Assembly: GCA_037042915.1 (NCBI GenBank)
Contig: CM073195.1
Coordinates: 2,480,001-2,544,000 of the forward strand
DNA from: Auricularia sp. M13
Lineage: Eukaryota; Basidiomycota; Agaricomycetes; Auriculariales; Auriculariaceae
Direction: 5' to 3'
DNA length: 64,000 bases
In this document: piece by piece, positions 8,087-38,970 of the stretch
Position numbering within the stretch: the first letter of the stretch is position 1
Layout: every line of letters starts with the position of its first letter
Notes under the pieces: model-generated
What the model saw: only the letters and a program-made list of their open reading frames with translations
Database searches by the model: none
What the model was told of the DNA's origin: nothing
Made by a program: the position numbers and the translations under genes

Positions 8087-8364
8087 TCCCTCCCTCCCTT
8101 CAGCGTGAAATTTCTCCAAATTGAAATAATACTATTTATCCTTAATGTTTTGCAAAATTTGAGCTATAAGAACATGGGAATTCTGTATTTTATACTGCCA
8201 TCAGCAGTCAATGGGTGGAACAATAGTGGTACCTAACTGTTCTCAGCAGAAGGACAGTGAGAATAATAGCACATATATTGATAACAAACTGATTATATTA
8301 TGGGATGGAATTGATGGCAGCAACCTTGATGGGTGGATGTGGTGGCGAGCAGCAAACTGCTCAT

Positions 8365-8847
8365 TGTCACAGTGACTGCTATATCACTCTCTGAGACGAC
8401 GCTCGAGGGGTAGGGATGAGTGGGGAGAGGGAGGTGCGGATAAGCGGTATGATAGACCAGACCAAACCTAAGGTACAAGAGGGGGCTCTGGCCCAAGTAT
8501 ATATACTACGGAAGCAAGGCCGAGGGGGCCTGCTGACCAATTGCGCCACCGACCGGGTGTCACGCGGGCGCCACAGATCAAGCCGAGAGAGACCGCCGGG
8601 GTGTCCTCGGCGAGCCAGGAAACCCGGGATAAATAGAGCCCAACCAAACCAGAAACATCCCGTCGTATTACCCTTCTCCTGGGAAGAGACCGAAATGCTC
8701 GCCGAGCGGAGAGACCGCTAGGACGCGCCGACAGAAGGGCTGCGGGGCCAGGTGCAAGGAGTTTGGGGCGCCCAAATGAAGTGCAAGGACCATGGGACGG
8801 CGAAATGAAACAGCGGGGGAGGAGGGACCCGACGAAGACCGCAACAT
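8365..8847 (+). repeat. LTR of family C (483 bp)
   Basis: Starts TGTCACAG and ends CCGCAACA, followed by TAACCCCCCTTCTAG exactly as in family A. It carries the shared box AGACCAGACCAAACCTA at about 8451 and TATATA about 45 nt later. No second copy is found downstream before the right inverted repeat, so the element has lost its 3' LTR or was captured incomplete. Confidence 0.7.
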
Positions 8848-9072
8848 AACCCCCCTTCTAGCCGTCCAGTGGCCGAGGTGAGGATGGCCCGAGGAGGTGC
8901 GGGTTAGATCGGGCGTGGAGAGACGGACCATAGCATCGCCGGGCTGAGCTCCATCCGCCGCGGGATCAAACTCTAAGCGTTAGATGCCGTAAAGGGCTCG
9001 GCCATCGCCGTACACGAACCGCGGTACTTCTCCCTCCTCGTCTCCTTGCTTCCCGCCACCGCCCAATATCCC

Positions 9073-10266
9073 ATGACGCCCACTGCCGCTGACGGACTGA
9101 CGGCGAAGCCTCTCGGCGAACTTCAGGACCTCAGGGAGCAGGTGTTTACGCTGCATGCCTCGATCCAGCGCCAGCTGAACTTCGGGCACTACGCCGCGGA
9201 TGCGGAGGAAGAGAAGGCGTGGACGGTGCTCGCGTCTGCGGGCCAGCGGCTGGAGGCCATTGACGCTGAGGTGCGCCGACGCAACGCCACGACCCGCAAT
9301 CTGGAGACAGCGGTGTCCCTCCTCGGCATGACAGCAGCCTCGCTCCCCGTCGTGCTGAAGGTGGAAGGGGTTTGCCGCACGGAAACGACCTCCTCGACCG
9401 CGAAAGGCAAGGGCCCATTGGGAGCGGTCGCGTCTGGGTCTAAGCGATCTTCGGACGCCGGCGAGCGAGGGACCGGCGACGAAGAGAAGGACACAGTCGG
9501 GCCTCCGTTTGGCACGGTACGCCCGGGCCAAAGGCTCTCTTGCTCCGGGGTATATCCTGCGCTGACATCCTTCGTCCGGGTCCAGCCTTGTGAGCAGTGC
9601 GAGCGCTCCGGCAAGCCGTGTTTTCGACAAGTGTCCGGGTCGGCGACTGCCTGTGCTCGCTGCAACAGGTCCCGCGTGGGGTGTTCTCACAGTGTCGGCC
9701 GGTCGGGCACATCGCGCAAGAGGGCCCGACCGGATGTTGACATTGACGGCGACGACGGGGACCATCCGGACCAGGACAACGTGGTGGACACCGTCGGCTC
9801 ATCTGTGGCGCGGTCGCGCACCCGCCAAAGGCTTTGGTCGCCGGGGACGGCCACCATGGCCGACCTCGAGGTCCTGGGCGACCACATTGTCCAGGGGTTC
9901 CAACTGTCCGTCTCGGCACTGCGGCGCGATTTTCGCAAATGGACGCAAGAACTCGTCGACGACCGGCGGGCTTACAAGACGGTGCGCCTCGTGTCGCCGG
10001 GCGGGAGCGACCACGATACCGAATCCAACGACGGCCGAGCGATGGAGGACGAGGCGGGGAGGTCGCCCATTGCCGCGCCGACTACCCCTGGCGTCTCGGG
10101 CGTGGAGACGGAGGCGCCGGCTGATCCTGTCGGCGTGCTCGCTGATTTTGGCGCCGACCTGGCCCTCCTCGGTGTGGTAGTGCCGGGGAGTGCGCGGCCG
10201 ACACCCAGCTTCGCGTCAATGGAGGCGTTGCGAGCATCGTTGCGAGCTGTTGCGAGCTCGCTGTGA
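9073..10266 (+). CDS. zinc-cluster protein encoded by LTR family C
   Basis: Open for 397 codons from ATG 9073. The N-terminal ~130 residues look helical (LGELQDLREQVFTLHASIQ). A Ser/Gly/Glu-rich linker follows, then CEQCERSGKPC and ACARCNRSRVGC, which fit C-x2-C-x6-C-x10-C-x2-C-x6-C, the spacing of the fungal Zn2Cys6 binuclear cluster. A basic patch (SRKRARPDVD) and an acidic C-terminal half come next. The array gene at 20765-22208 has the same layout. 9550-9585 has GT...AG borders and a CTGAC branch-like site just before the cluster, where the array gene has its intron, but at 36 nt and in frame it may be coding. The role is unknown: it could be a gag-like nucleic-acid-binding protein of a non-autonomous retroelement or a captured regulator. 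Confidence 0.6.
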   Translation: MTPTAADGLTAKPLGELQDLREQVFTLHASIQRQLNFGHYAADAEEEKAWTVLASAGQRLEAIDAEVRRRNATTRNLETAVSLLGMTAASLPVVLKVEGVCRTETTSSTAKGKGPLGAVASGSKRSSDAGERGTGDEEKDTVGPPFGTVRPGQRLSCSGVYPALTSFVRVQPCEQCERSGKPCFRQVSGSATACARCNRSRVGCSHSVGRSGTSRKRARPDVDIDGDDGDHPDQDNVVDTVGSSVARSRTRQRLWSPGTATMADLEVLGDHIVQGFQLSVSALRRDFRKWTQELVDDRRAYKTVRLVSPGGSDHDTESNDGRAMEDEAGRSPIAAPTTPGVSGVETEAPADPVGVLADFGADLALLGVVVPGSARPTPSFASMEALRASLRAVASSL

Positions 10267-10577
10267 TACCCCCTATTGTGTGTGAGCAAGGTGCAATGCC
10301 ACCTCCTCGCAACTGAAGCTACAATTCCGGCTTCTCATGCAGTGTCACATTATCAGACATAAATAACAGGCTTTTTCTTGACATATCTTGCTTTTCAAGT
10401 CCTCAGGGGCGCTGATAGTATGCAGTTGAAGTTTCGCCCAGTTTCATACCTCCACTGTGACACCCAGTAGCACTGATAATATCTGTATGGAGATAAATTA
10501 TCTTTGGTTTGCCTTTAATACCCTTACAAGTAATTCTCCAGATTGTGAAGGAAGGGAACCAAGTGCTTGGGGGGGGG

Positions 10578-10975
10578 CTGGAGAGTTGGGGTGAGCGGGT
10601 CTTTCGGAGTCCGAATGCTCATCCGAGTCTTCGGAGACGGCCGAGCTCCTCCAAATCGAGGATCTCACCGAGCAGTGGAATCCCGGAAGCCCCTTGTACC
10701 ATTCAATAATTAATCTTGAGCTCAAAAATGCATATTTATTTACCAAAAACCTTCTTCATGGTTTGTCTGATATATCTGCTGATAAGATTAGATCGGATTG
10801 CCTCCAGTTGGCATTCCTGACCCATCCTGCTCTCCTGCTGCCACAGCACTTCACATACAGCATTTATATATATTGAAGCGCATTATGAGCTCTCAATTAC
10901 CAAAAGAGAGCTCAAGAGCTGGATTGCCCGACCGGACGGCGCTTTGGCTTATCCTTGCCCTTCTCGGCAACGGAA
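10578..10975 (-). repeat. right terminal inverted repeat (~398 bp)
   Basis: Mirror of 7692-8086. Its outer end GGCAACGGAA abuts the CCAGTC duplication. The interval 10267-10577 just inside is AT-rich and holds nothing I can name. Confidence 0.85.
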
Positions 10976-19139: not shown

Positions 19140-19741
19140 ACAAAGGCATACCTCGCCATTGCTGCTGAGAATATGCGGGGGCGGCACTCACGATCCGGGG
19201 AAGCGTCAAGTGGCGCAGGCTTGCTAACAACATTTGCACTCACAAGATTGGAGTAATGGCCATCCAGGAGACCCACATGACAAAAGACCTCGTAGACCAG
19301 GCAGAAATGATGTACAGGAACTTATGTATCTTCAACACGGCCCTGCCGGACAACCCGACAGGGGCGGGAGGGGTAGCGATAATACTAAACAAACTTGTGA
19401 CGAACACGGCAACGGCGAAAACGGCCGTCCTAGTGGAAGGACGGGCAATTGCCGTCGAGTTTGAATGGCACAGAGGCAGGCGCATCTGCGTACTAGCCGT
19501 CTACGCGCCAACGGACAAAGACGAGAATAGATCCTTCTGGAAAAACATACGCAAAAAAACTCAAAAGGCCACATTTTGAGCTCGCCCAACCAGAGATACT
19601 CCTCGGAGACCTAAACTGTGACAAAGACCCAATAGATAGATTCCCCGTAAAGCTAACCCCAATGGATAACCCGGAATCGCTCACAGCTCTGAAAAAAACC
19701 CTACGAATCACGGATGCCTGGCGTGAATGCTTCCCAGCCAC
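19140..19741 (+). pseudogene. LINE ORF2, N-terminal half of EEP endonuclease
   Basis: Signature pieces of the exonuclease-endonuclease-phosphatase fold appear in order but in shifting frames: ENMRG (about 19165), CTHKIGVMAIQETH with the catalytic Glu at 19268-19270, GAGGVAIIL, ICVLAVYAPTD, and after a poly-A frameshift near 19555, LLGDLN (19602-19616) with its Asp/Asn pair. The frame is cut at 19741 in TDAWRECFPAT by the LTR array and continues at 34458. Confidence 0.75.
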
Positions 19742-20595
19742 TGTCACGGCAGAGCGCTCGTCACTCGCCGAGACCGACGCCCAAGAGAGGAGAGAGGGAC
19801 GAGGAAGAACGGACAAGCGGTACAATTGACCAGACCAAACCTGGGGTACACGCATCTACACCCTACAACCTATATACCCTTCCCCCAGGGTCCGATGATC
19901 CGGTCCAGGGTGATCCCGGAGCTAAAGGGTCCATCCACCATCATCTCCCATGATGCCAACACCCTACCACACCTCCAATCGAACCTGGTCCGAGACAGGA
20001 CAAAGGTGCCGAGGTATGCTATCCACATACACACCCACCGAGGGCACGAACCGGGGAGGAGGGCACCTCCCGAGTGCACGGGGAGAGCGCCGAGCTGCTG
20101 AGGCCACGGGCCGAGGGTCCGAGGATGTAGCCGAGCTTGTACCAGGCGATGACAACCGGCCTACTATCCCTCCGAGGGGTGTCGCACCAGCGAGGAGTCC
20201 AACAGAGGCGTTCCAGACCCTCCGAGGTCGTTCAGGGTGGCCCACCGAGTTCGCCCGAGGCCAGAAGGGGATCCTAGAGTCCATCCCGAGCACCACAACA
20301 CCCATACCCGACGCATACAGCGAGGGGAGAGCTGCCGAACCCTGGTCCGAGGATAAGAAGCCTCCACCGAGCCGGTGGGGTATGCGCCGAGGTCGTCTCA
20401 CCCCTAGACAGGTAGAGAGCGGCGCATCGATCATATCCCGAGTTGAGCAGCCCGAGGCGTATAACCCTGGCCGAGTCTCCGTTCGAGGGTAAACAGTGCG
20501 CCGACTGTATGCAGCAGCGACCGAGCGCTCGGCGAAGCGGCGTAAAACCCGCGGACGAGCGGACAGAGCTTGCGACGGCCGTGATGACCGCAACA
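19742..20595 (+). repeat. array LTR 1 (854 bp)
   Basis: TGTCACGG...CCGCAACA. Shared box TTGACCAGACCAAACCTGG is at about 19826, with TATATACCC at 19871. Carries the GAGCCGGTGGGG variant near 20372, shared only with LTR 3. Confidence 0.92.
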
Positions 20596-20764
20596 TAACC
20601 CCCCTTCAAGCCGCGAGCCGAGGGAGTGTCCGAGAGAGGGAGGCGAAAGGCGGGAGGGCGAAACAACGGACCGAGGGCGCCGCGGACTGAATAGCAATTC
20701 AGTTCACGGTTTGACATAAAGCGTCGGCCTGTCAGTTTGCTTCTTGTCCTCATACCACCACACC

Positions 20765-22208
20765 ATGCCCGCTACGGACCGCGTTGACAACGTCCGCGCC
20801 GACCAGCCCAGCAGCGGGGCGCCCGCCTGGGTGCCCGTGTTGGACGACTTTGTTCTTTCTCGCGCCCGGCCCGATGACCTGGAGGCCCGCGTCGTCGTCC
20901 TCGGCGACGCCGTCAACCGTATTGTCGCCGCGCTCGTTGACCCTGGGATCCCGCCCGCGCACCGTGACTTGGCCCGCCACCGCCAGCTTGAGTTCGAGAC
21001 GGAGCGCCGCTTGCTGCTCGCGCTGTTGCCTTCCGCCCGTGTCCTGGCAGCCAGTCTGGCGGCGTGCTCGTCGCCGTCGGACGCGCTGCTCCTGCCGTCC
21101 ATGACCGTGCCGCCGTCGCCGTCCGACCCTGTCCGTCCGCTGGCTTTGCGCTTGCCCCGTTGCCGTCGGACGCCGCCTCCCGCCCGCGCTGCTCGGCGTT
21201 GAGGATTCCGCCCGGGCACCCGTTATACGCTGAGTGCAAGGAGCCCGCGCCGTCGTCGTCCACTGCTGCTCCGTTGCCGCGCCGTCCCGTACCGGCGTCG
21301 TCGTCGTCCCGCACGCCGGGGCCGTCTCTCCCTGCGCGCTCGGCGCCGACCCCTCGTCCGCCGCGCTCGTCGTATACTGCCCGCGCGCCGCCCGCGTCCG
21401 CGCCACCACCGCCGACACTTCTCCACCACCCGCGACGGCCGAGGACACCCCCGGCCGGTGTGTACGAGCGTCCGGCGCTGCGCGAGCGGCGTCAGGCATG
21501 GGATAATGCGTTCGCCGACGGTCTGATCGACCGCCACGGGGTTCCGACGTCGGTAAGTACTTTGTTCTGTTGCTGCTGGTAGCGGGGTATTAACATTCGG
21601 CAGCCGTGTAGCCGATGCGTGGACCGCGACGATGAGTGCCTTCCGGCGCAGGGGCTGGCGGCGTGCCTCGAGTGCTCGCGCCGGAAGGTGAAGTGCTCGT
21701 GGAAGGATCTGCGCGCGCCGCTCGGGTTCGGGACCAAGACCGGGAAGGGTTCCAAGACGCCGGCGTCGGACACGCGTGCGCCGCCATCTCGCTCCCGCGC
21801 CGCGTCCGTCGTACCCCAGGCGCCCGCGTCGTCGTCGTCTCGTGCTTCGCGGTCTCGGACCGCGAAGGAGAGTCTGCCTGCGCTGCCTATTGAGGCACCG
21901 AGTGCGGGCGTCACGGCGGCCGCGCCCCGCTGCATCCCAACTTCATGGCGCAGTTCGCGGCGGCGTGGTCATTGGTTGCCGGGGGAGCCGCTCCGCCCGC
22001 GTCGTCGCATGTGTCCGTGCCTTTGCGCTCGGCCATGCGCCGCGGCACTCGTTTTGCGGCGGGTACGGCGACGCGGTCGTCCCGCTCGTCAGTTACACCC
22101 GGGGCGAGCTCCTCGCGCGCGTCGGCACCACCTGAGTCGGGTCCGGAGGAGGAGGAGGAGGACGAGGACGAGGTAGAGGAGGTGGAGGAAGCGATGGACA
22201 TGGACTGA
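20765..22208 (+). CDS. array gene copy 1: zinc-cluster protein of LTR family B
   Basis: ATG 20765 follows a CCACCACACC leader. The first ~144 residues (PVLDDFVLSRARPDDLEARV, then a His/Arg-rich helix FETERRLLLALLPSARVLAA) are open in one frame to 21202. A Pro/Ser-rich segment ending DGLIDRHGVPTS is open in another frame. I see no convincing intron joining them, so either a frameshift shared by all copies or an odd intron exists. A clear intron (GTAAGT 21553 to CAG 21603) precedes PCSRCVDRDDEC...ACLECSRRKVKC, matching C-x2-C-x6-C-x8-C-x2-C-x6-C (Zn2Cys6 spacing). A Ser-rich stretch and an acidic tail ending EEVEEAMDMD follow. In this copy a 4-C run near 21928 shifts the frame before the tail. 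Confidence 0.55.
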
Positions 22209-23205
22209 GGATTCGGTTCGGCATCCTGTACTTAGTCTTTCTTGTCGCAATGGGCGCATGTACAGAATATAAATAGCTTTCTTGAATCTGGGACCGAAGT
22301 GGGAGTCCGAACCAGCGCAAAGACCAATTGGACTTCTTTCTGCGGGTCCGGGATTTTGGCTCCAGTCGTCGGCGTATCCATCCTGGTGTGGCACCTTCCG
22401 ACCCAGGCATCCTGCGGCCGACTCCAAGGTCCGGGAAAGGTTGGATTCCAGTCCTGTGCTGTGTCCTGTTGGTCCGACTGCGCCTGCGCACCGACCCGTA
22501 AGTGATAAGGGAAATAAGGAACGTGTGGGATCCGCCGTCGGCGGCTGGGGTTCGCGCAGCGAGTGAAGTTACTGGTTGCTGGAGCTTCGGCGTGAGCTCG
22601 GGGCATCGTTAAGCGTCGTACATGTCGTCCAGCCAGCGGCCGGTGGTTCGTGACGTCCTCGGGGCGAGGGTGTTCATATCTCGGGCGTTGCAGCGCGTGC
22701 ATCCAGTCCATCCGGATCACGGCCGAGGCCCCATCTGCCGATGGCGTGCGAGAGGGGGAGGTGTAACAGCTGTGGCTTGAGCGCGCAAGTCCAGACAACC
22801 GGGGTGGGGTTTTGGGCGTGGGCGAGTGTCTCGGTTTACTCGCCGAGGTAGAGGGTGCGAAGGAGGTGCTGCACCAGGGGTCGCCGAGGGCGGGATCGGG
22901 GTATCCCGCGCGACCGTGTGGAGAGGCTGTGCCAAGGGCTTGGTCATGCGCTGCGGCCGATGGGATGGAGATAGGGCCTTGGCAGTGGACGCCTCGCTTC
23001 TCGGTGTGGGTGGCGACTCCGAGGGAGAAGGATGCGGATGCCAATGGACCTCGGCCGGTGCACAGCAGCTAGCTGACGGCGAGGCCAGCCTGATGAGGTC
23101 GTCGGCGTGACACACGGGCGATAGTAGTCGGGAGGACGTCGCGGCCGTGTGGGGAAGAAGAAGAGGGATGAGCGTCGGTCGAAAGGGAGTGAAGGTTTGG
23201 TCTTA

Positions 23206-24061
23206 TGTCACGGCAGAGCGCTCGTCACTCGCCGAGACCGACGCCCAAGAGAGGAGAGAGGGACGAGGAAGAACGGACAAGCGGTACAATTGACCAGACC
23301 AAACCTGGGGTACACGCATCTACACCCTACAACCTATATACCCTTCCCCCAGGGTCCGATGATCCGGTCCAGGGTGATCCCGGAGCTAAAGGGTCCATCC
23401 ACCATCATCTCCCATGATGCCAACACCCTACCACACCTCCAATCGAACCTGGTCCGAGACAGGACAAAGGTGCCGAGGTATGCTATCCACATACACACCC
23501 ACCGAGGGCACGAACCGGGGAGGAGGGCACCTCCCGAGTGCACGGGGAGAGCGCCGAGCTGCTGAGGCCACGGGCCGAGGGTCCGAGGATGTAGCCGAGC
23601 TTGTACCAGGCGATGACAACCGGCCTACTATCCCTCCGAGGGGTGTCGCACCAGCGAGGAGTCCAACAGAGGCGTTCCAGACCCTCCGAGGTCGTTCAGG
23701 GTGGCCCACCGAGTTCGCCCGAGGCCAGAAGGGGATCCTAGAGTCCATCCCGAGCACCACAACACCCATACCCGACGCATACAGCGAGGGGAGAGCTGCC
23801 GAACCCTGGTCCGAGGATAAGAAGCCTCCACCGAGCCGAATTGGGGTATGCGCCGAGGTCGTCTCACCCCTAGACAGGTAGAGAGCGGCGCATCGATCAT
23901 ATCCCGAGTTGAGCAGCCCGAGGCGTATAACCCTGGCCGAGTCTCCGTTCGAGGGTAAACAGTGCGCCGACTGTATGCAGCAGCGACCGAGCGCTCGGCG
24001 AAGCGGCGTAAAACCCGCGGACGAGCGGACAGAGCTTGCGACGGCCGTGATGACCGCAACA
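23206..24061 (+). repeat. array LTR 2 (856 bp)
   Basis: Same ends as LTR 1. Carries GAGCCGAATTGGGG, the state also seen in LTRs 4 and 5 and in the outgroup solo LTR at 37511. Confidence 0.92.
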
Positions 24062-24230
24062 TAACCCCCCCTTCAAGCCGCGAGCCGAGGGAGTGTCCGA
24101 GAGAGGGAGGCGAAAGGCGGGGAGGGCGAAACAACGGACCGAGGGCGCCGCGGACTGAATAGCAATTCAGTTCACGGTTTGACATAAAGCGTCGGCCTGT
24201 CAGTTTGCTTCTTGTCCTCATACCACCACC

Positions 24231-25674
24231 ATGCCCGCTACGGACCGCGTTGACAACGTCCGCGCCGACCAGCCCAGCAGCGGGCGCCCGCCTGGGTGCC
24301 CGTGTTGGACGACTTTGTTCTTTTCGCGCCCGGCCCGATGACCTGGAGGCCCGCGTCGTCGTCCTCGGCGACGCCGTCAACCGTATTGTCGCCGCGCTCG
24401 TTGACCCTGGGATCCCGCCCGCGCACCGTGACTTGGCCCGCCACCGCCAGCTTGAGTTCGAGACGGAGCGCCGCTTGCTGCTCGCGCTGTTGCCTTCCGC
24501 CCGTGTCCTGGCAGCCAGTCTGGCGGCGTGCTCGTCGCCGTCGGACGCGCTGCTCCTGCCGTCCATGACCGTGCCGCCGTCGCCGTCCGACCCTGTCCGT
24601 CCGCTGGCTTTGCGCTTGCCCCGTTGCCGTCGGACGCCGCCTCCCGCCCGCGCTGCTCGGCGTTGAGGATTCCGCCCGGGCACCCGTTATACGCTGAGTG
24701 CAAGGAGCCCGCGCCGTCGTCGTCCACTGCTGCTCCGTTGCCGCGCCGTCCCGTACCGGCGTCGTCGTCGTCCCCGCACGCCGGGGCCGTCTCTCCCTGC
24801 GCGCTCGGCGCCGACCCCTCGTCCGCCGCGCTCGTCGTATACTGCCCGCGCGCCGCCCGCGTCCGCGCCACCACCGCCGACACTTCTCCACCACCCGCGA
24901 CGGCCGAGGACACCCCCGGCCGGTGTGTACGAGCGTCCGGCGCTGCGCGAGCGGCGTCAGGCGTGGGATAATGCGTTCGCCGACGGTCTGATCGACCGCC
25001 ACGGGGTTCCGACGTCGGTAAGTACTTTGTTCTGTTGCTGCTGGTAGCGGGGTATTAACATTCGGCAGCCGTGTAGCCGATGCGTGGACCGCGACGATGA
25101 GTGCCTTCCGGCGCAGGGGCTGGCGGCGTGCCTCGAGTGCTCGCGCCGGAAGGTGAAGTGCTCGTGGAAGGATCTGCGCGCGCCGCTCGGGTTCGGGACC
25201 AAGACCGGGAAGGGTTCCAAGACGCCGGCGTCGGACACGCGTGCGCCGCCATCTCGCTCCCGCGCCGCGTCCGTCGTACCCCAGGCGCCCGCGTCGTCGT
25301 CGTCTCGTGCTTCGCGGTCTCGGACCGCGAAGGAGAGTCTGCCTGCGCTGCCTATTGAGGCACCGAGTGCGGGCGTCACGGCGGCCGCGCCCCCGCTGCA
25401 TCCCAACTTCATGGCGCAGTTCGCGGCGGCGTGGTCATTGGTTGCCGGGGGAGCCGCTCCGCCCGCGTCGTCGCATGTGTCCGTGCCTTTGCGCTCGGCC
25501 ATGCGCCGCGGCACTCGTTTTGCGGCGGGTACGGCGACGCGGTCGTCCCGCTCGTCAGTTACACCCGGGGCGAGCTCCTCGCGCGCGTCGGCACCACCTG
25601 AGTCGGGTCCGGAGGAGGAGGAGGAGGACGAGGACGAGGTAGAGGAGGTGGAGGAAGCGATGGACATGGACTGA
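24231..25674 (+). CDS. array gene copy 2: exon 2 intact, 5' part frameshifted
   Basis: The intron is 25018-25068. Exon 2 (25069-25674) is open from the cysteine cluster to the acidic tail and stop: ~201 codons, with a 5-C run near 25390 that keeps the frame where the other copies have 4 C. In contrast the 5' part has lost a G near 24282 and differs near 24325, which breaks the opening frame. So this copy has the best C-terminal half and the worst N-terminal half of the four. Confidence 0.55.
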
Positions 25675-26671
25675 GGATTCGGTTCGGCATCCTGTACTTA
25701 GTCTTTCTTGTCGCAATGGGCGCATGTACAGAATATAAATAGCTTTCTTGAATCTGGGACCGAAGTGGGAGTCCGAACCAGCGCAAAGACCAATTGGACT
25801 TCTTTCTGCGGGTCCGGGATTTTGGCTCCAGTCGTCGGCGTATCCATCCTGGTGTGGCACCTTCCGACCCAGGCATCCTGCGGCCGACTCCAAGGTCCGG
25901 GAAAGGTTGGATTCCAGTCCTGTGCTGTGTCCTGTTGGTCCGACTGCGCCTGCGCACCGACCCGTAAGTGATAAGGGAAATAAGGAACGTGTGGGATCCG
26001 CCGTCGGCGGCTGGGGTTCGCGCAGCGAGTGAAGTTACTGGTTGCTGGAGCTTCGGCGTGAGCTCGGGGCATCGTTAAGCGTCGTACATGTCGTCCAGCC
26101 AGCGGCCGGTGGTTCGTGACGTCCTCGGGGCGAGGGTGTTCATATCTCGGGCGTTGCGGCGCGTGCATCCAGTCCATCCGGATCACGGCCGAGGCCCCAT
26201 CTGCCGATGGCGTGCGAGAGGGGGAGGTGTAACAGCTGTGGCTTGAGCGCGCAAGTCCAGACAACCGGGGTGGGGTTTTGGGCGTGGGCGAGTGTCTCGG
26301 TTTACTCGCCGAGGTAGAGGGTGCGAAGGAGGTGCTGCACCAGGGGTCGCCGAGGGCGGGATCGGGGTATCCCGCGCGACCGTGTGGAGAGGCTGTGCCA
26401 AGGGCTTGGTCATGCGCTGCGGCCGATGGGATGGAGATAGGGCCTTGGCAGTGGACGCCTCGCTTCTCGGTGTGGGTGGCGACTCCGAGGGAGAAGGATG
26501 CGGATGCCAATGGACCTCGGCCGGTGCACAGCGGCTAGCTGACGGCGAGGCCAGCCTGATGAGGTCGTCGGCGTGACACACGGGCGATAGTAGTCGGGAG
26601 GACGTCGCGGCCGTGTGGGGAAGAAGAAGAGGGATGAGCGTCGGTCGAAAGGGAGTGAAGGTTTGGTCTTA

Positions 26672-27527
26672 TGTCACGGCAGAGCGCTCGTCACTCGCCG
26701 AGACCGACGCCCAAGAGAGGAGAGAGGGACGAGGAAGAACGGACAAGCGGTACAATTGACCAGACCAAACCTGGGGTACACGCATCTACACCCTACAACC
26801 TATATACCCTTCCCCCAGGGTCCGATGATCCGGTCCAGGGTGATCCCGGAGCTAAAGGGTCCATCCACCATCATCTCCCATGATGCCAACACCCTACCAC
26901 ACCTCCAATCGAACCTGGTCCGAGACAGGACAAAGGTGCCGAGGTATGCTATCCACATACACACCCACCGAGGGCACGAACCGGGGAGGAGGGCACCTCC
27001 CGAGTGCACGGGGGGAGAGCGCCGAGCTGCTGAGGCCACGGGCCGAGGGTCCGAGGATGTAGCCGAGCTTGTACCAGGCGATGACAACCGGCCTACTATC
27101 CCTCCGAGGGGTGTCGCACCAGCGAGGAGTCCAACAGAGGCGTTCCAGACCCTCCGAGGTCGTTCAGGGTGGCCCACCGAGTTCGCCCGAGGCCAGAAGG
27201 GGATCCTAGAGTCCATCCCGAGCACCACAACACCCATACCCGACGCATACAGCGAGGGGAGAGCTGCCGAACCCTGGTCCGAGGATAAGAAGCCTCCACC
27301 GAGCCGGTGGGGTATGCGCCGAGGTCGTCTCACCCCTAGACAGGTAGAGAGCGGCGCATCGATCATATCCCGAGTTGAGCAGCCCGAGGCGTATAACCCT
27401 GGCCGAGTCTCCGTTCGAGGGTAAACAGTGCGCTGACTGTATGCAGCAGCGACCGAGCGCTCGGCGAAGCGGCGTAAAACCCGCGGACGAGCGGACAGAG
27501 CTTGCGACGGCCGTGATGACCGCAACA
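26672..27527 (+). repeat. array LTR 3 (856 bp)
   Basis: Shares the GAGCCGGTGGGG variant with LTR 1. Private differences include GCACGGGGGGAG near 27010 and GCGCTGACTG near 27431. Confidence 0.92.
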
Positions 27528-27696
27528 TAACCCCCCCTTCAAGCCGCGAGCCGAGGGAGTGTCCGAGAGAGGGAGGCGAAAGGCGGGGAGGGCGAAACAA
27601 CGGACCGAGGGCGCCGCGGACTGAATAGCAATTCAGTTCACGGTTTGACATAAAGCGTCGGCCTGTCAGTTTGCTTCTTGTCCTCATACCACCACC

Positions 27697-29136
27697 ATGC
27701 CCGCTACGGACCGCGTTGACAACGTCCGCGCCGACCAGCCCAGCAGCGGGGCGCCCGCCTGGGTGCCCGTGTTGGACGACTTTGTTCTTTCTCGCGCCCG
27801 GCCCGATGACCTGGAGGCCCGCGTCGTCGTCCTCGGCGACACCGTCAACCGTATTGTCGCCGCGCTCGTTGACCCTGGGATCCCGCCCGCGCACCGTGAC
27901 TTGGCCCGCCACCGCCAGCTTGAGTTCGAGACGGAGCGCCGCTTGCTGCTCGCGCTGTTGCCTTCCGCCCGTGTCCTGGCAGCCAGTCTGGCGGCGTGCT
28001 CGTCGCCGTCGGACGCGCTGCTCCTGCCGTCCATGACCGTGCCGCCGTCGCCGTCCGACCCTGTCCGTCCGCTGGCTTTGCGCTTGCCCCGTTGCCGTCG
28101 GACGCCGCCTCCCGCCGCGCTGCTCGGCGTTGAGGATTCCGCCCGGGCACCCGTTATACGCTGAGTGCAAGGAGCCCGCGCCGTCGTCGTCCACTGCTGC
28201 TCCGTTGCCGCGCCGTCCCGCACCGGCGTCGTCGTCGTCCCGCACGCCGGGGCCGTCTCTCCCTGCGCTCGGCGCCGACCCCTCGTCCGCCGCGCTCGTC
28301 GTATACTGCCCGCGCGCCGCCCGCGTCCGCGCCACCACCGCCGACACTTCTCCACCACCCGCGACGGCCGAGGACACCCCCGGCCGGTGTGTACGAGCGT
28401 CCGCGCTGCGCGAGCGGCGTCAGGCGTGGGATAATGCGTTCGCCGACGGTCTGATCGACCGCCACGGGGTTCCGACGTCGGTAAGTACTTTGTTCTGTTG
28501 CTGCTGGTAGCGGGGTATTAACATTCGGCAGCCGTGTAGCCGATGCGTGGACCGCGACGATGAGTGCCTTCCGGCGCAGGGGCTGGCGGCGTGCCTCGAG
28601 TGCTCGCGCCGGAAGGTGAAGTGCTCGTGGAAGGATCTGCGCGCGCCGCTCGGGTTCGGGACCAAGACCGGGAAGGGTTCCAAGACGCCGGCGTCGGACA
28701 CGCGTGCGCCGCCATCTCGCTCCCCGCGCGTCGCGTCCGTCGTACCCCAGGCGCCCGCGTCGTCGTCGTCTCGTGCTTCGCGGTCTCGGACCGCGAAGGA
28801 GAGTCTGCCTGCGCTGCCTATTGAGGCACCGAGTGCGGGCGTCACGGCGGCCGCGCCCCGCTGCATCCCAACTTCATGGCGCAGTTCGCGGCGGCGTGGT
28901 CATTGGTTGCCGGGGAGCCGCTCCGCCGCGTCGTCGCATGTGTCCGTGCCTTTGCGCTCGGCCATGCGCCGCGGCACTCGTTTTGCGGCGGGTACGGCGA
29001 CGCGGTCGTCCCGCTCGTCAGTTACACCCGGGCGAGCTCCTCGCGCGCGTCGGCACCACCTGAGTCGGGTCCGGAGGAGGAGGAGGAGGACGAGGACGAG
29101 GTAGAGGAGGTGGAGGAAGCGATGGACATGGACTGA
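27697..29136 (+). CDS. array gene copy 3
   Basis: ATG 27697, intron 28481-28531, exon 2 from 28532. Opening frame intact to 28164. Private indels occur near 28113, 28268, 28404 and 28724, plus losses near 28913 and 29033 in G/C runs. The 4-C run near 28857 breaks the frame before the acidic tail, as in copies 1 and 4. Confidence 0.5.
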
Positions 29137-30132
29137 GGATTCGGTTCGGCATCCTGTACTTAGTCTTTCTTGTCGCAATGGGCGCATGTACAGAATATAA
29201 ATAGCTTTCTTGAATCTGGGACCGAAGTGGGAGTCCGAACCAGCGCAAAGACCAATTGGACTTCTTTCTGCGGGTCCGGGATTTTGGCTCCAGTCGTCGG
29301 CGTATCCATCCTGGTGTGGCACCTTCCGACCCAGGCATCCTGCGGCCGACTCCAAGGTCCGGGAAAGGTTGGATTCCAGTCCTGTGCTGTGTCCTGTTGG
29401 TCCGACTGCGCCTGCGCACCGACCCGTAAGTGATAAGGGAAATAAGGAACGTGTGGGATCCGCCGTCGGCGGCTGGGGTTCGCGCAGCGAGTGAAGTTAC
29501 TGGTTGCTGGAGCTTCGGCGTGAGCTCGGGGCATCGTTAAGCGTCGTACATGTCGTCCAGCCAGCGGCCGGTGGTTCGTGACGTCCTCGGGGCGAGGGTG
29601 TTCATATCTCGGGCGTTGCGGCGCGTGCATCCAGTCCATCCGGATCACGGCCGAGGCCCCATCTGCCGATGGCGTGCGAGAGGGGAGGTGTAACAGCTGT
29701 GGCTTGAGCGCGCAAGTCCAGACAACCGGGGTGGGGTTTTGGGCGTGGGCGAGTGTCTCGGTTTACTCGCCGAGGTAGAGGGTGCGAAGGAGGTGCTGCA
29801 CCAGGGGTCGCCGAGGGCGGGATCGGGGTATCCCGCGCGACCGTGTGGAGAGGCTGTGCCAAGGGCTTGGTCATGCGCTGCGGCCGATGGGATGGAGATA
29901 GGGCCTTGGCAGTGGACGCCTCGCTTCTCGGTGTGGGTGGCGACTCCGAGGGAGAAGGATGCGGATGCCAATGGACCTCGGCCGGTGCACAGCGGCTAGC
30001 TGACGGCGAGGCCAGCCTGATGAGGTCGTCGGCGTGACACACGGGCGATAGTAGTCGGGAGGACGTCGCGGCCGTGTGGGGAAGAAGAAGAGGGATGAGC
30101 GTCGGTCGAAAGGGAGTGAAGGTTTGGTCTTA

Positions 30133-30989
30133 TGTCACGGCAGAGCGCTCGTCACTCGCCGAGACCGACGCCCAAGAGAGGAGAGAGGGACGAGGAAGAA
30201 CGGACAAGCGGTACAATTGACCAGACCAAACCTGGGGTACACGCATCTACACCCTACAACCTATATACCCTTCCCCCAGGGTCCGATGATCCGGTCCAGG
30301 GTGATCCCGGAGCTAAAGGGTCCATCCACCATCATCTCCCATGATGCCAACACCCTACCACACCTCCAATCGAACCTGGTCCGAGACAGGACAAAGGTGC
30401 CGAGGTATGCTATCCACATACACACCCACCGAGGGCACGAACCGGGGAGGAGGGCACCTCCCGAGTGCACGGGGAGAGCGCCGAGCTGCTGAGGCCACGG
30501 GCCGAGGGTCCGAGGATGTAGCCGAGCTTGTACCAGGCGATGACAACCGGCCTACTATCCCTCCGAGGGGTGTCGCACCAGCGAGGAGTCCAACAGAGGC
30601 GTTCCAGACCCTCCGAGGTCGTTCAGGGTGGCCCACCGAGTTCGCCCGAGGCCAGAAGGGGATCCTAGAGTCCATCCCGAGCACCACAACACCCATACCC
30701 GACGCATACAGCGAGGGGAGAGCTGCCGAACCCTGGTCCGAGGATAAGAAGCCTCCACCGAGCCGAATTGGGGTATGCGCCGAGGTCGTCTCACCCCCTA
30801 GACAGGTAGAGAGCGGCGCATCGATCATATCCCGAGTTGAGCAGCCCGAGGCGTATAACCCTGGCCGAGTCTCCGTTCGAGGGTAAACAGTGCGCCGACT
30901 GTATGCAGCAGCGACCGAGCGCTCGGCGAAGCGGCGTAAAACCCGCGGACGAGCGGACAGAGCTTGCGACGGCCGTGATGACCGCAACA
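30133..30989 (+). repeat. array LTR 4 (857 bp)
   Basis: GAATTGGGG variant, plus an extra C in CACCCCCTAGAC near 30795 that is shared only with LTR 5. Confidence 0.92.
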
Positions 30990-31158
30990 TAACCCCCCCT
31001 TCAAGCCGCGAGCCGAGGGAGTGTCCGAGAGAGGGAGGCGAAAGGCGGGGAGGGCGAAACAACGGACCGAGGGCGCCGCGGACTGAATAGCAATTCAGTT
31101 CACGGTTTGACATAAAGCGTCGGCCTGTCAGTTTGCTTCTTGTCCTCATACCACCACC

Positions 31159-32600
31159 ATGCCCGCTACGGACCGCGTTGACAACGTCCGCGCCGACCAG
31201 CCCAGCAGCGGGGCGCCCGCCTGGGTGCCCGTGTTGGACGACTTTGTTCTTTCTCGCGCCCGGCCCGATGACCTGGAGGCCCGCGTCGTCGTCCTCGGCG
31301 ACACCGTCAACCGTATTGTCGCCGCGCTCGTTGACCCTGGGATCCCGCCCGCGCACCGTGACTTGGCCCGCCACCGCCAGCTTGAGTTCGAGACGGAGCG
31401 CCGCTTGCTGCTCGCGCTGTTGCCTTCCGCCCGTGTCCTGGCAGCCAGTCTGGCGGCGTGCTCGCCGCCGTCGGACGCGCTGCTCCTGCCGTCCATGACC
31501 GTGCCGCCGTCGCCGTCCGACCCTGTCCGTCCGCTGGCTTTGCGCTTGCCCCGTTGCCGCCGGACGCCGCCTCCCGCCCGCGCTGCTCGGCGTTGAGGAT
31601 TCCGCCCGGGCACCCGTTATACGCTGAGTGCAAGGAGCCCGCGCCGTCGTCGTCCACTGCTGCTCCGTTGCCACGCCGTCCCGCACCGGCGTCGTCGTCG
31701 CCCCGCACGCCGGGGCCGTCTCTCCCTGCGCGCTCGGCGCCGACCCCTCGTCCGCCGCGCTCGTCGTATACTGCCGCGCGCCGCCCGCGTCCGCGCCACC
31801 ACCGCCGACACTTCTCCACCACCCGCGACGGCCGAGGACACCCCGGCCGGTGTGTACGAGCGTCCGGCGCTGCGCGAGCGGCGTCAGGCGTGGGATAATG
31901 CGTTCGCCGACGGTCTGATCGACCGCCACGGGGTTCCGACGTCGGTAAGTACTTTGTTCTGTTGCTGCTGGTAGCGGGGTATTAACATTCGGCAGCCGTG
32001 TAGCCGATGCGTGGACCGCGACGATGAGTGCCTTCCGGCGCAGGGGCTGGCGGCGTGCCTCGAGTGCTCGCGCCGGAAGGTGAAGTGCTCGTGGAAGGAT
32101 CTGCGCGCGCCGCTCGGGTTCGGGACCAAGACCGGGAAGGGTTCCAAGACGCCGGCGTCGGACACGCGTGCGCCGCCATCTCGCTCCCGCGCCGCGTCCG
32201 TCGTACCCCAGGCGCCCGCGTCGTCGTCGTCTCGTGCTTTCGCGGTCTCGGACCGCGAAGGAGAGTCTGCCTGCGCTGCCTATTGAGGCACCGAGTGCGG
32301 GCGTCACGGCGGCCGCGCCCCGCTGCATCCCAACTTCATGGCGCAGTTCGCGGCGGCGTGGTCATTGGTTGCCGGGGGAGCCGCTCCGCCCGCGTCGTCG
32401 CATGTGTCCGTGCCTTTGCGCTCGGCCATGCGCCGCGGCACTCGTTTTGCGGCGGGTACGGCGACGCGGTCGTCCCGCTCGTCAGTTACACCCGGGCGAG
32501 CTCCTCGCGCGCGTCGGCACCACCTGAGTCGGGTCCGGAGGAGGAGGAGGAGGACGAGGACGAGGTAGAGGAGGTGGAGGAAGCGATGGACATGGACTGA
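31159..32600 (+). CDS. array gene copy 4
   Basis: ATG 31159, intron 31945-31995, exon 2 from 31996. Opening frame intact to 31596. It has an extra T in the TGCTTTCGCGG stretch near 32238, a 4-C run near 32319 and a missing G near 32493, so exon 2 is broken in more than one place. The cysteine cluster itself is intact. Confidence 0.5.
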
Positions 32601-33596
32601 GGATTCGGTTCGGCATCCTGTACTTAGTCTTTCTTGTCGCAATGGGCGCATGTACAGAATATAAATAGCTTTCTTGAATCTGGGACCGAAGTGGGAGTCC
32701 GAACCAGCGCAAAGACCAATTGGACTTCTTTCTGCGGGTCCGGGATTTTGGCTCCAGTCGTCGGCGTATCCATCCTGGTGTGGCACCTTCCGACCCAGGC
32801 ATCCTGCGGCCGACTCCAAGGTCCGGGAAAGGTTGGATTCCAGTCCTGTGCTGTGTCCTGTTGGTCCGACTGCGCCTGCGCACCGACCCGTAAGTGATAA
32901 GGGAAATAAGGAACGTGTGGGATCCGCCGTCGGCGGCTGGGGTTCGCGCAGCGAGTGAAGTTACTGGTTGCTGGAGCTTCGGCGTGAGCTCGGGGCATCG
33001 TTAAGCGTCGTACATGTCGTCCAGCCAGCGGCCGGTGGTTCGTGACGTCCTCGGGGCGAGGGTGTTCATATCTCGGGCGTTGCGGCGCGTGCATCCAGTC
33101 CATCCGGATCACGGCCGAGGCCCCATCTGCCGATGGCGTGCGAGAGGGGAGGTGTAACAGCTGTGGCTTGAGCGCGCAAGTCCAGACAACCGGGGTGGGG
33201 TTTTGGGCGTGGGCGAGTGTCTCGGTTTACTCGCCGAGGTAGAGGGTGCGAAGGAGGTGCTGCACCAGGGGTCGCCGAGGGCGGGATCGGGGTATCCCGC
33301 GCGACCGTGTGGAGAGGCTGTGCCAAGGGCTTGGTCATGCGCTGCGGCCGATGGGATGGAGATAGGGCCTTGGCAGTGGACGCCTCGCTTCTCGGTGTGG
33401 GTGGCGACTCCGAGGGAGAAGGATGCGGATGCCAATGGACCTCGGCCGGTGCACAGCGGCTAGCTGACGGCGAGGCCAGCCTGATGAGGTCGTCGGCGTG
33501 ACACACGGGCGATAGTAGTCGGGAGGACGTCGCGGCCGTGTGGGGAAGAAGAAGAGGGATGAGCGTCGGTCGAAAGGGAGTGAAGGTTTGGTCTTA

Positions 33597-34452
33597 TGTC
33601 ACGGCAGAGCGCTCGTCACTCGCCGAGACCGACGCCCAAGAGAGGAGAGAGGGACGAGGAAGAACGGACAAGCGGTACAATTGACCAGACCAAACCTGGG
33701 GTACACGCATCTACACCCTACAACCTATATACCCTTCCCCAGGGTCCGATGATCCGGTCCAGGGTGATCCCGGAGCTAAAGGGTCCATCCACCATCATCT
33801 CCCATGATGCCAACACCCTACCACACCTCCAATCGAACCTGGTCCGAGACAGGACAAAGGTGCCGAGGTATGCTATCCACATACACACCCACCGAGGGCA
33901 CGAACCGGGGAGGAGGGCACCTCCCGAGTGCACGGGGAGAGCGCCGAGCTGCTGAGGCCACGGGCCGAGGGTCCGAGGATGTAGCCGAGCTTGTACCAGG
34001 CGATGACAACCGGCCTACTATCCCTCCGAGGGGTGTCGCACCAGCGAGGAGTCCAACAGAGGCGTTCCAGACCCTCCGAGGTCGTTCAGGGTGGCCCACC
34101 GAGTTCGCCCGAGGCCAGAAGGGGATCCTAGAGTCCATCCCGAGCACCACAACACCCATACCCGACGCATACAGCGAGGGGAGAGCTGCCGAACCCTGGT
34201 CCGAGGATAAGAAGCCTCCACCGAGCCGAATTGGGGTATGCGCCGAGGTCGTCTCACCCCCTAGACAGGTAGAGAGCGGCGCATCGATCATATCCCGAGT
34301 TGAGCAGCCCGAGGCGTATAACCCTGGCCGAGTCTCCGTTCGAGGATAAACAGTGCGCCGACTGTATGCAGCAGCGACCGAGCGCTCGGCGAAGCGGCGT
34401 AAAACCCGCGGACGAGCGGACAGAGCTTGCGACGGCCGTGATGACCGCAACA
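33597..34452 (+). repeat. array LTR 5, right end (856 bp)
   Basis: Ends CCGCAACA at 34452, followed by the GCCAC duplication and LINE sequence in place of the TAACCCCC junction. Private changes include TTCCCCAGG near 33735 and GAGGATAAAC near 34344. Confidence 0.92.
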
Positions 34453-34457
34453 GCCAC

Positions 34458-37400
34458 CATAGAATGGACTTGGCGGAATGCCGCCTGAACAGCGATGTCA
34501 AGACTGGACAGGATCTACATCACAAGCACACTTGGGTCATTGGCAAAAAACTGGACGATGCAGATCTCAGGCATCACGACGAACGATCATAGCCGGGTAT
34601 CAGTCCAAATAGCACACCTAGATGCCCCAGAAATAGGAGAAGGACGATGGTCGATGCAAACATCCCTCATAAGAGATAGGAAACTAATTGCCCTAGTAAA
34701 CGATCTGGGGAGAGAAGCACTCCGGTCGATGCAAGAAGCCTCCACACATAACAGATCGCCATCGCGGAACCCACAGACGATTTGGCAAGAACTCAAGAAG
34801 CAAATCACGACCGCAGCCAAGTCCAGAGCGAAGGAAACGACCTGTGCGCGCCTGACAAGGTTGAGAAAGATGGAGACAGACAGAGCGGGCATCCTTGCAC
34901 AGCTGGCAGTATCAGAAGATGTGGCACAACAGTCCTCCCTGAACAGAACACTCCGCAAAGCGGAGACAGCAATAGAAAGAATCCGAGTAAGAACTTCAAT
35001 GACCGATTCGCAAGAAGGTCGGCAAGCAACTGGGCAGACACCGAGACGATGAGCAAATCCTGGTTCCGCTGGCACAAAGACCCAGCACCCCGTGACACAA
35101 TTGCCGCCTTCCGCAGACCAGGGACGGATGGCCAGGATTTCACAACGAACTCGAAACAAGTGGCGAAACTAGCCAGAGACTACCATGAGAGCATCCAAGA
35201 GCTAGACCTAGATGGCGACGACGCGGAGAGGAAAAGAAGCAACCAATGAGGCCCTACGCCACATACTCCGCCCGGCAGTGCCCGAGGTTATCGAGGAACT
35301 AGCACGGAGAATATCACAACAAGACGTCAAGGAGTCCCTCAGGACCGGGAAGAACGACTCCGCCCCAGGACTAGATGGACTGACTTATGAGCTGTGGAAG
35401 GAGCTCAAAAAGCACCACACCATAGCGCAAAAAAGAAACCTACCGGCCTTTGACGTCATCGGGGCGCTGCTCCTGGTATACAAGGATATTGAGGAGTTTG
35501 GCGTAGACGGCGGAACGAACTTCACAGAAGGATGGCTGAGCCCCCTCTATAAGAAAGGTGAACGCAGCGAAATCACGAATTATAGGCCGATCACCCTACT
35601 AAACACAGATTACAAAATATATACTAAAGCCCTGGCGCTGAAGCTAGCGAGAGCAGCACCTGGAATCATCCACGGATCTCAAGCGGGTTTTGTCAGAGGG
35701 CGTAGTATAACGGACCGAGCAAAGCTCACTACCCTGATAATAGACTACGCCGAGGCAACCTCGTTGGATGGGGCCATAGTAGCGTTAGACCAAGAAAAGG
35801 TTTATGACAGGATCTGACATGACTATTTACTGACGATCCTACGAGGGTATAAATTCCCCGAACGACTAGTAAAAGTGATAGGCTCACTGTACGCGAATGC
35901 GAAAACGGCGGTCATTGTCAACGGCTGCATCAGTGAGAAATACAGAGTGACGAGGGGAGTGAGACAGGGAGATCCTCTCTCTTGCCTACTTTTTAACCTT
36001 GCAATCGAGCCACTGTCAGCCATGCTGTGTACGTCCGATCTGCAAGGAATCAACATTTGCGGCCTAACAGAAAAGCTGATCGCTTCCCTATACACGGACA
36101 ACACCACGGTGTTCCTCTCGGCGAATGACTCTTACACATCACTCTGCCGGATCCTGCAAACCTGGTGCTTAGCATCTGGCGCAAAGTTCAACATAACGAA
36201 AACCGAAATAATCCCAATTGGATCACCAAACTACAGGGCCAATATGATCCAGTCACGCAGGCTGAACGGAGATGACGATCCATTCCCCGACCAGGTGCGC
36301 ATAGCGAGGGACGGAGAACCCACCAGGATACTCGGAGCATGGCCAGGGAACGGTGTAGGTGTGGTGAACGCCTGGACAAGCATGTTAGATAAACTGGAGA
36401 ACACACTCTCACGATGGGAACGCACAAAACCCTCCCTGAGCGGACGTGCCATTGTCTCCCGGGTGATAATCGGGGGACATACACAATTCCTGACAGCAGC
36501 ACAGGGTATGCCACAAAGCGTGGAACATCGCCTCGACAAGGTGCCACTGAACTTCTTCTGGGGCAGCACCAAACGGCACCCCGTGAATATGGCAACGCTA
36601 CGACTCCCCAGACAGCATGGAGATATGAACCTGTTCCACGCGGAGGAGAGAAACGAGGCACAATACCTGTCTTGGGTGAGCGCGTACATGGCACCAGCAC
36701 ACGCCCAACCACCCTGGGCAATCGTGGCAGAAAGGATATTTGAATCAGCCATCATCGCGGAGCAACGCGAGAGAGTACCGGTGGAACAGAGGCTAAACCC
36801 CTTCTACCAAGACTGGCGGCCGAATATGCTCAAGATACCATTTATACTCAGGCAGATGCTGAAGACAGCCCGCAAGTACGGCGTGGTGGCAGACGCCCCC
36901 ATACTGCCGCTGACAGTCCGAGAGGGTATCCTGGTATGGTCTCACCCAGCACTACTCAACGGCAACACACTACACCGCAAGAGAGGGCCACTGAGATGCC
37001 TCAGGACGAAACACGCGGTGGTCACGGTTGAGGATTTGAGATCGCGGAAATGGACTGCGCGGACCACATGCACCGACAAAACTGCCGATGCGAAAACTGC
37101 GTGGCTGACAGAACCGAGGGATGCAGAAACCCGGCAAAGTGCCAAGAACTGGCTAACAACGTCTTGAGCACGATCACCGCGAAATGGAATACGGCAATAT
37201 CGGACTCAACCCTGGGATGGGACGAGTGGCTACGCCTGCTCCCATCACGTGAGCAGGTCATTGACACTGGCAAACCAATAGCATTCAACCCGTCCCCCCC
37301 GGTGGGATCTCGCCCAGAAGATGTAATGAGAGTCTTCACGGACACCATAGCTATCCGACAACGCGACGTTGGCGCTCTACTACATGCTGAAGCAGGCACA

Positions 37401-37478: not shown

Positions 37479-38970
37479 TAGGGTTTTGCACGGGTATACC
37501 CTTGGGTATGTGTCACGGCAGAGCGCTCGTCACTCGCCGAGACCGACGCCCAAAGGAGGAGAGAGGGACGAGGAAGAACGGACAAGCGGTACAATTGACC
37601 AGACCAAACCTAGGGTACACGCATCTACACCCCACAACCTATATACCCCTCCCCCAAGGGCCGCTGATCCGGCCCAGGGTGATCCTGGAGCTAATGGACA
37701 CACCTCTCATCACCTTCCATGACACCGACTCCCCGCCAAACCTCCGGTCGAGCACGATCTGAGGCGGGGCTAAGGTGCCAAGATATACCATACACACCGA
37801 GGACACGGACCGAGGAGGGGGGGCGTCACACGGGCGCATAGGGATGGTGCCGAGCTACTGAGAGCCAAAGCCGAGAGTCCGAGGGTGTAGCCAAGCTTGT
37901 ACCAGGCCAGAGTAGCCTCAATACTATCCGTCCGAGATGTAGCGCGCCAGTGGGAAGTCCAATAGAGGCGTTCCCGAGCCCCCGGGGCTGCACAGGGTGA
38001 CCAGCCGAGCCCGTCCGAGGTCCGAAGAGGGTCCTAGAGTCTGGCCCGAGCGTTACAGCGCCCGTACCCGACGCATACAGCGAGGTGAGAGCAGCCGAAC
38101 CATGGTCCGAGGGTGGGAGACCTCCACCGAGCCGAATTGATGTATGCGCCGAGGTCGTCTCACCCCATAGACCGATAGAGAGCGGCACGTAGATCATATC
38201 CCGAGCCGTTCAGCCCGAGGTCGACAACCCTGGCCGAGTCTCAGTCCGAGGATAAACGGTATGCCGACTGTATGCAGCAGCGACCGAACACTCGGCGAAG
38301 CGGCGTAAAACCCCCGGACGAACGGACAGAGCTTGCGGAGACCGCGAAGACCGCAACAGTATGCAGTGGTAACCCGGACCCTTACCCGCAAGGGTCATAC
38401 CCGTCATACCTCTGGGTAGAAGGCGGGTACGGGTTCTAATGTGGGTTGCACGGGTCACCCGAGGGTCTGACCCGTTGGGGGTACCAAAGTTGCTCAAGTA
38501 GATTTCTATGAATATACATTAATCATCGATCACAATTGTGTCAGATACTCTATCCCAGCCCTCCTCAAAAGCCTCTTCCTCCCCCCTCACCTCTGGCAGA
38601 ACTACCACTTTCATGATGTCCTCGTCTTTGACGAACCCACCGGTATTTACGTGTTTGCGTCGGCAAACACCAGCTTATGTAATCGGGCCAGAATGCCAGA
38701 AAGGAAGACAAGACAGTATTAAGACAGGGTCAGGCTGGTAACAGAAAGGGAAAAGGAGTAATGGAAAGGGGAAAAGGGGTCCGGACCCTGACATCGGTGT
38801 AGAGAGCAGCCGGAATGTGAATTGAGTTTGCTACTGATGAGTCATCGGGTGTACCAACCCGAAACCCGAGGGTAAGCGGGTCAAGGGTCCTAAAATGGTA
38901 ACCCGTACCCGTACCCTCGAGGGTACGGGTATCAACCCGCCAAGGGTACATATACCCTTGCAAAACCCTA
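37479..38970. mobile_element. hAT-type MITE containing a solo LTR
   Basis: The ends are perfect inverted repeats TAGGGTTTTGCA...TGCAAAACCCTA, flanked by CAGACAAG (37471-37478) and CAGACGAG (38971-38978), an 8-bp duplication with one difference. TAGGG ends and 8-bp duplications are hAT hallmarks. About 640 bp remain without the LTR; they consist largely of (A)CCCGTACCC/GGGTACGGGT-like motifs in both orientations. Total inserted length is 1500 nt, which keeps the LINE frame. Confidence 0.82.
37511..38358 (+). mobile_element. solo LTR of family B, 5-bp TSD GTATG
   Basis: TGTCACGG...CCGCAACA, 848 bp, flanked by GTATG at 37506-37510 and 38359-38363. Nearly identical to the array LTRs for the first ~200 bp (box and TATATACCC included) and more diverged afterwards, so it is an older relative. 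It shows the GAGCCGAATTG state. Confidence 0.9.

Follow-up and report, generated by a model that had tools for sequence, protein, structure and literature searches.

The window analysed here, a stretch of 64,000 nucleotides of contig CM073195.1 of the basidiomycete Auricularia sp. M13, contains at 19742-34452 an array in which five long terminal repeats (LTRs) alternate with four internal regions (bodies), all in one orientation. The array unit is a non-autonomous LTR retroelement encoding one intron-containing gene. The array probably arose by one insertion, followed by repeated unequal LTR-LTR exchange in place, a history that fits better than the insertion of a ready-made multimer. The original prediction for this DNA had offered repeated unequal exchange and multimeric cDNA (complementary DNA) as the two ways of reaching five LTRs; exchange after one insertion is now the best reading, and the multimer is less favoured by the sequence markers within the array.

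The layout of LTRs of 854-857 bp and bodies of 2605-2610 bp was confirmed. On the forward strand, LTR1 (854 bp, 19742-20595) is followed by body 1 (2610 bp, 20596-23205), LTR2 (856 bp, 23206-24061), body 2 (2610 bp, 24062-26671), LTR3 (856 bp, 26672-27527), body 3 (2605 bp, 27528-30132), LTR4 (857 bp, 30133-30989), body 4 (2607 bp, 30990-33596) and LTR5 (856 bp, 33597-34452). The 5-bp target site duplication (TSD) GCCAC is present on the forward strand at both outer ends (19737-19741 and 34453-34457), as had been claimed, whilst at the eight inner LTR/body junctions the parts abut directly and no target duplication occurs. The two flanks, when rejoined, align across the joint to a related copy of a long interspersed nuclear element (LINE) at C11:938437-938723 with 70% identity, a related empty site; the nine matches of this search were the two flanks themselves, the C11 copy and six partial matches. 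The right-hand continuation of the LINE-like host element (34458-37167, +) carries Pfam RVT_1 matches at 35212-35817 and 35875-37167. Since there is one outer TSD, a related LINE that is intact through the joint and reverse transcriptase domains downstream, the array block is a single insertion event into a LINE-like element. Two nearby insertions that had recombined, or one nested in another, were rejected on the grounds of the one TSD and the lack of foreign DNA between units. Of the earlier description of the flank as a continuous LINE endonuclease, the LINE part stands on the related copy and the downstream RVT_1; the endonuclease part is deduced from position only, and a Pfam scan of two flank open reading frames (ORFs) found no domain.

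The units are close relatives. Identity to LTR2 is 99.3-100% for the array LTRs, which differ by 0-3 substitutions per pair, and identity to body 2 is 99.35-100% for the bodies; both lie far above chance. Because LTR and body divergence are both ∼0.2%, the window array is young. Pairs of array bodies differ by 3-10 substitutions, whereas the three nearest copies are 20-38 substitutions away from them; body 2 shows the fewest differences from these outside copies. Over its full length no other body exceeds 90% identity to body 2, the exceptions being a 403-bp piece (96%) and a 724-bp piece (93%). At 11 alignment columns the four array bodies agree and all differ from all three nearest copies, and for 7 of these columns none of the nine other aligned bodies has the array state. 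Because the four bodies have these 11 differences in common, the window array has a single founder.

Two private variants record what happened after that founder. Variant M, a compound change of AATT to GT, is found in LTR1 (pattern place 20365-20385) and LTR3 (27297-27317) but not in LTR2, LTR4 or LTR5, giving the pattern M,w,M,w,w; it is missing from all 36 other LTRs aligned, and a genome-wide search allowing one mismatch gave two places, both in the array. A private G-to-A change occurs in bodies 3 (at 27841) and 4 (at 31303) only, again at two places genome-wide by exact match. Substitutions differ from unit to unit: three G-to-A changes and one beside a run in body 1, four in body 4, and no unit-private substitution in body 2; body 3 shows one substitution and a 3-base insertion. 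Since each of the two private variants is common to exactly two units, new mutations were copied between array units, and the comparison of LTRs and bodies suggested by the original prediction thus yielded shared variants of the predicted kind. Such copying fits unequal exchange or conversion. It is not predicted if a cDNA multimer, made from joined cDNAs, from transcripts of one-LTR circles or by template switching, integrated in one step and its units mutated independently later. A multimer is as compatible with the single TSD as exchange is, it is named beside recombination in the Discussion sections of PMC11899658 and PMC7215508, and mosaic bodies in copies L012, L013 and L015 indicate that template switching or recombination has occurred in the family. 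Yet the two array-private changes are not the independent unit mutations that it predicts, and a donor carrying variant M is absent from the assembly; we regard this origin as unlikely.

The proposed sequence of events is as follows. A non-autonomous element with 854-857-bp LTRs and a 2.6-kb body integrated once into the LINE with one 5-bp duplication, as the structure shows, using integration enzymes presumably supplied by an autonomous LTR element of the same genome. This two-LTR element would then have grown by unequal pairing and exchange of non-allelic LTRs between sister chromatids or homologues, as the markers suggest. Each exchange would add one LTR-body unit but create no further target duplication, and its reciprocal or intrachromatid counterpart would leave a solo LTR. 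As variant M is in LTR1 and LTR3 and the private base in bodies 3 and 4, at least two exchanges would postdate new mutations in the array; gene conversion in place may account for part. The LTR pattern suits an exchange in which one chromatid took part with its last LTR and another with LTR1. A single doubling of dimer with dimer also fits the LTR pattern, but as the sole event it predicts that body 1 resembles body 3 and body 2 resembles body 4, whereas bodies 3 and 4 are sisters. That LTR-LTR exchange occurs in the family follows from nine solo LTRs with perfect TSDs and from a second array on C11.

Several points weigh against this reading. The argument for exchange rests on no more than two shared private markers, and the sisterhood of bodies 3 and 4 requires a further exchange or conversion. 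Gap columns exceed substitution columns, in the bodies (22 versus 11) as in the LTRs (6 versus 3), and runs of at least three identical bases contain 14 of the 22 and 4 of the 6, respectively; these run-associated columns may be consensus errors, and no inference was rested on gap columns. The same excess, in an assembly of 14 contigs, would also be compatible with an assembly artefact in which one or two real units were expanded, or two haplotypes merged. The units carry different substitutions, however, and a second array is present elsewhere, and we consider such an artefact highly improbable.

The second array itself adds to the points against. It lies at C11:2665764-2677839, with three bodies and four LTRs within the TSD GCTGG, and its bodies differ by 0-4 substitutions. 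Bodies 2 and 3 show zero substitutions relative to a separate copy, L080 (C11:2629323-2631924, −), 35 kb away on the opposite strand, and body 1 has four substitutions relative to bodies 2 and 3 and to L080. Another copy may therefore have supplied units of this array, through cDNA or ectopic exchange; alternatively, L080 may have descended from the array. The C11 array was accordingly given up as a second clean one-founder case; that it is a patchwork of very different members was rejected on its 0-4 substitutions. These relations would be allowed if family cDNA had entered a resident single element by homologous recombination, independently of integrase. Such recombination would likewise leave a single TSD and insert units one by one, and yeast cases are cited in the Background section of PMC11899658. 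It predicts units from various members, whereas the window bodies have their 11 differences in common, 7 of them unique in the alignment, and no other full-length body exceeds 90% identity to body 2. For the window array we consider it unlikely, and slightly less probable than the multimer. An 834-bp insert with inverted-repeat ends CGGCGCCCTCCTCCGGAGGGG was also seen in body 1 of the C11 array (L029 3508-4341).

The array belongs to a family, here called A, with 33 bodies at 28 loci: 26 loci have one body, the window locus four and the C11 locus three. All 39 candidates were scored, and the resulting 40 rows were grouped into 33 bodies after joining two split bodies and dropping five short or distant matches (C7:2809710, C12:482351, C5:590415, C3:2394517 and C3:163936); a search with the encoded protein likewise gave 33 matches. 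LTR counts are lower bounds, the best 40 candidates having been scored. Sequences retrieved from beyond the window were the C11 array, 4 further bodies and 20 loci, of which 13 have a body and 7 a solo LTR. One of the nine solo LTRs with intact, perfect TSDs lies in the window itself (37511-38358, +), 3 kb from the array; it is ∼82% identical to the array LTRs and has its own duplication, GTATG. The mosaic bodies of L012 and L013 are ∼99% array-like from alignment column 1200 on and belong to another subgroup before it, whilst that of L015 is ∼99% array-like only from column 1200 to 2000; the LTRs of these copies are 97-98% identical. At C4:1483492-1490388 a family member (−) is apparently nested in the body of another (+), judged from match coordinates.

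The ends of family A insertions are those of an LTR retroelement. The LTRs are of the TG...CA type, TGTCACGG...CCGCAACA, and the target duplication is a perfect 5 bp in all 21 insertions tested (2 arrays, 10 single elements and 9 solo LTRs), a set that excludes L011, L018 and L028, whose ends are cut off, and loci without retrieved flanks. Complementarity to a transfer RNA (tRNA) primer reached at best 9 of 15 positions among 38 tRNA records (37 distinct) from 40 of 55 listed tRNA loci, and a self-priming complement reached 8 of 11, against a shuffled mean of 7.7; neither kind of priming is convincing on these figures. The leader after the LTR, TAACCCCCC, is common to family A and to a second LTR family, B, and there is a purine-rich stretch near the body end. 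No reverse transcriptase, integrase or protease family was found in any of 11 body ORFs scanned, and by known sizes a 2.6-kb body is too short for a gag-pol region. Integrase matches are plentiful in the genome (150 scored of 222 candidates), so that an enzyme source for a non-autonomous element exists. No close autonomous partner with the same LTRs was noticed among the LTR matches (best 40 candidates) and body matches listed; the junction search led to family B, in which the copies showing both ends likewise lack the length for pol. Terminal-repeat retrotransposons in miniature (TRIMs) are very small and without coding capacity, and we take the maize element Wukong to be non-coding; family A lies outside the TRIMs, at 4.3 kb per single element and with a coding gene under selection. 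Large retrotransposon derivatives (LARDs) are large pol-less LTR elements with a non-coding body; the array element is pol-less, yet its body is protein-coding.

The encoded gene is described here from body 2, where exon 1 (24231-25017, +) has a frame that is broken in this assembly, the intron (25018-25068, +; 51 bp) runs from GTAAGT to CAG, and exon 2 (25069-25674, +) is open and encodes six cysteines, C-x2-C-x6-C-x8-C-x2-C-x6-C, and an acidic C-terminus. The GT and CAG intron ends are kept in 20 of 20 copies. The intron measures 51 bp in 17 of them and 52 bp in L023, L025 and L028, where its removal is therefore needed for the exons to share a frame. Of the 20 copies, 18 have the cysteine motif and two are frameshifted at that point. 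Zn2Cys6 fungal transcription factors have the spacing C-x2-C-x6-C-x5to12-C-x2-C-x6to8-C, which the family A protein follows, but its match to Pfam Zn_clus (PF00172) stays below the cut-off (17 and 17.3 bits versus 21; E 0.0065 for 17). The gene, earlier labelled a zinc-cluster gene, is here called zinc-cluster-like. One protein search with exon 2 alone, limiting candidate lengths, and another among the best 8000 candidates found no match for the protein, and there was none among viral contigs or solved structures; a limited search of the open-licence literature found nothing on point for zinc-cluster genes in LTR elements.

Codon positions point to clear purifying selection on the family A gene. 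Differences between copies in exon 2 are strongly biased to the third position (15/13/53 for L022, p 3.6e-9; 22/16/60 for C11 body 3, p 1.5e-8), most segments of exon 1 have this phase as well, though 24662-24781 does not, and the non-coding 3′ part, compared in five copies, has no third-position bias (smallest p 0.12). Six of 20 copies have both exons open, all of them single-body insertions (L010, L019, L022, L023, L025 and L028), and none of the seven units in the two arrays is fully open. The claim that amplification multiplies the gene therefore holds for the DNA but not for a working gene: all four window copies are frameshifted as assembled (0/4 intact versus 6/20 overall). Consensus error inside the arrays could contribute to the broken frames.

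The LTR-end and leader string of family A occurs 64 times in the genome (up to 3 mismatches; reversed control 0), and about half of the occurrences are family B, which has LTRs of ∼480 bp and a total length of ∼4.2 kb in the four copies with both ends listed. Families A and B can be aligned near the LTR start (95 columns, 77%) and across the LTR end plus leader (29 columns, 93%), with nothing significant between. A family B copy lies in the window at 8365-10266 (+), with a 482-bp LTR, the common leader and an ORF at 9046-10266; self-comparison of the window showed no 3′ LTR for it. The ORF encodes 406 residues with a six-cysteine motif similar to that of family A, and the two proteins align significantly over the motif only (14/35, E 0.004). 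Pfam found nothing on the B protein. Two of the three comparisons made for this ORF showed third-position bias (p 0.001, 0.001 and, for the third, 0.05), which suggests purifying selection on the B protein also, on weaker evidence than for A.

Some further features of family B were noted. An antisense ORF lies downstream in both B copies with ORFs listed (L076 3763-4803, −; L077 3674-4579, −), that of L076 encoding a chromodomain (Pfam E 4.8e-8; 33.2 bits, cut-off 25.1). In L078 47-1017 (C1:5884196−) two LTRs are separated by just the first 11 leader bases, with no matching 5-bp duplication at the outer ends, possibly an aberrant product of reverse transcription. The window B copy lies between inverted repeats of 384-407 bp with 97-99% identity (7692-8094 and 10569-10975), and a direct repeat of 726 bp, 100% identical, occupies window positions 1-726 and 3544-4269.

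Because A and B have related LTR ends, the same leader and, in both, a six-cysteine protein under purifying selection (clear in A, weaker in B), we tentatively raise the idea, doubtful as it is, that the zinc-cluster-like protein is a working part of this pol-less group rather than captured cargo. It might bind the LTRs of its own element or target chromatin and thereby promote expression, packaging or integration through a borrowed pol. Were this so, tandem growth would multiply the binding sites of the protein, and a pol-less retroelement with such a gene in its own machinery would be following an unusual strategy.

As a kind of structure the array is not surprising, since LTR retroelements with 3-7 LTRs are already published. 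The shape is ordinary and its kind is known in plants and other organisms; what is of interest is the private markers and the coding gene. The gene itself is less ordinary than the array shape: it is under purifying selection, and a similar motif recurs in a second LTR family whose termini and leader are related. For fungi, a small search of the open-licence literature, by title and abstract start, found no report of tandem LTR arrays. A 54-kb duplication in Yarrowia is ascribed in PMC5014426 to unequal crossing over between Ylli elements and is not an LTR array. The LARDs of Laccaria bicolor are, like the window element, non-autonomous LTR derivatives in a mushroom-forming basidiomycete, one of them recent; in the passages bearing on them, tandem LTR arrays and a zinc protein both go unmentioned (PMC3411680).

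The closest parallels are in plants. Among 89 Wukong elements of maize, PMC4528315 gives eight with three LTRs, five with four, and two with six and seven, and suggests unequal crossing over; Wukong is termed a TRIM there, unlike the window family with its 4.3 kb per single element and its gene. Cassandra, a TRIM for which arrays of up to 12 units are described in PMC7215508, likewise has pol-less LTR units head to tail, but 5S RNA sequence in its LTRs and a very small internal domain, whereas the window array has LTRs of 854-857 bp and a coding body. The window array agrees with the definition of a tandem LTR retrotransposon in PMC11899658, with alternating LTRs and bodies, an LTR at each end and one TSD. 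The 266 such elements reported from a rice pangenome, together with the other plant cases, resemble it in this arrangement, in their TSDs, in being mostly young and in the single insertion inferred for them, but are mostly Gypsy elements with retrotransposon domains, whereas the window array is pol-less and lies in a 52-Mb genome. The origin of tandem LTR arrays is left open in the Discussions of PMC11899658 and PMC7215508. Few units, a sequenced family and private variants make the order of events in the window array testable with strains, and its markers favour exchange in place.

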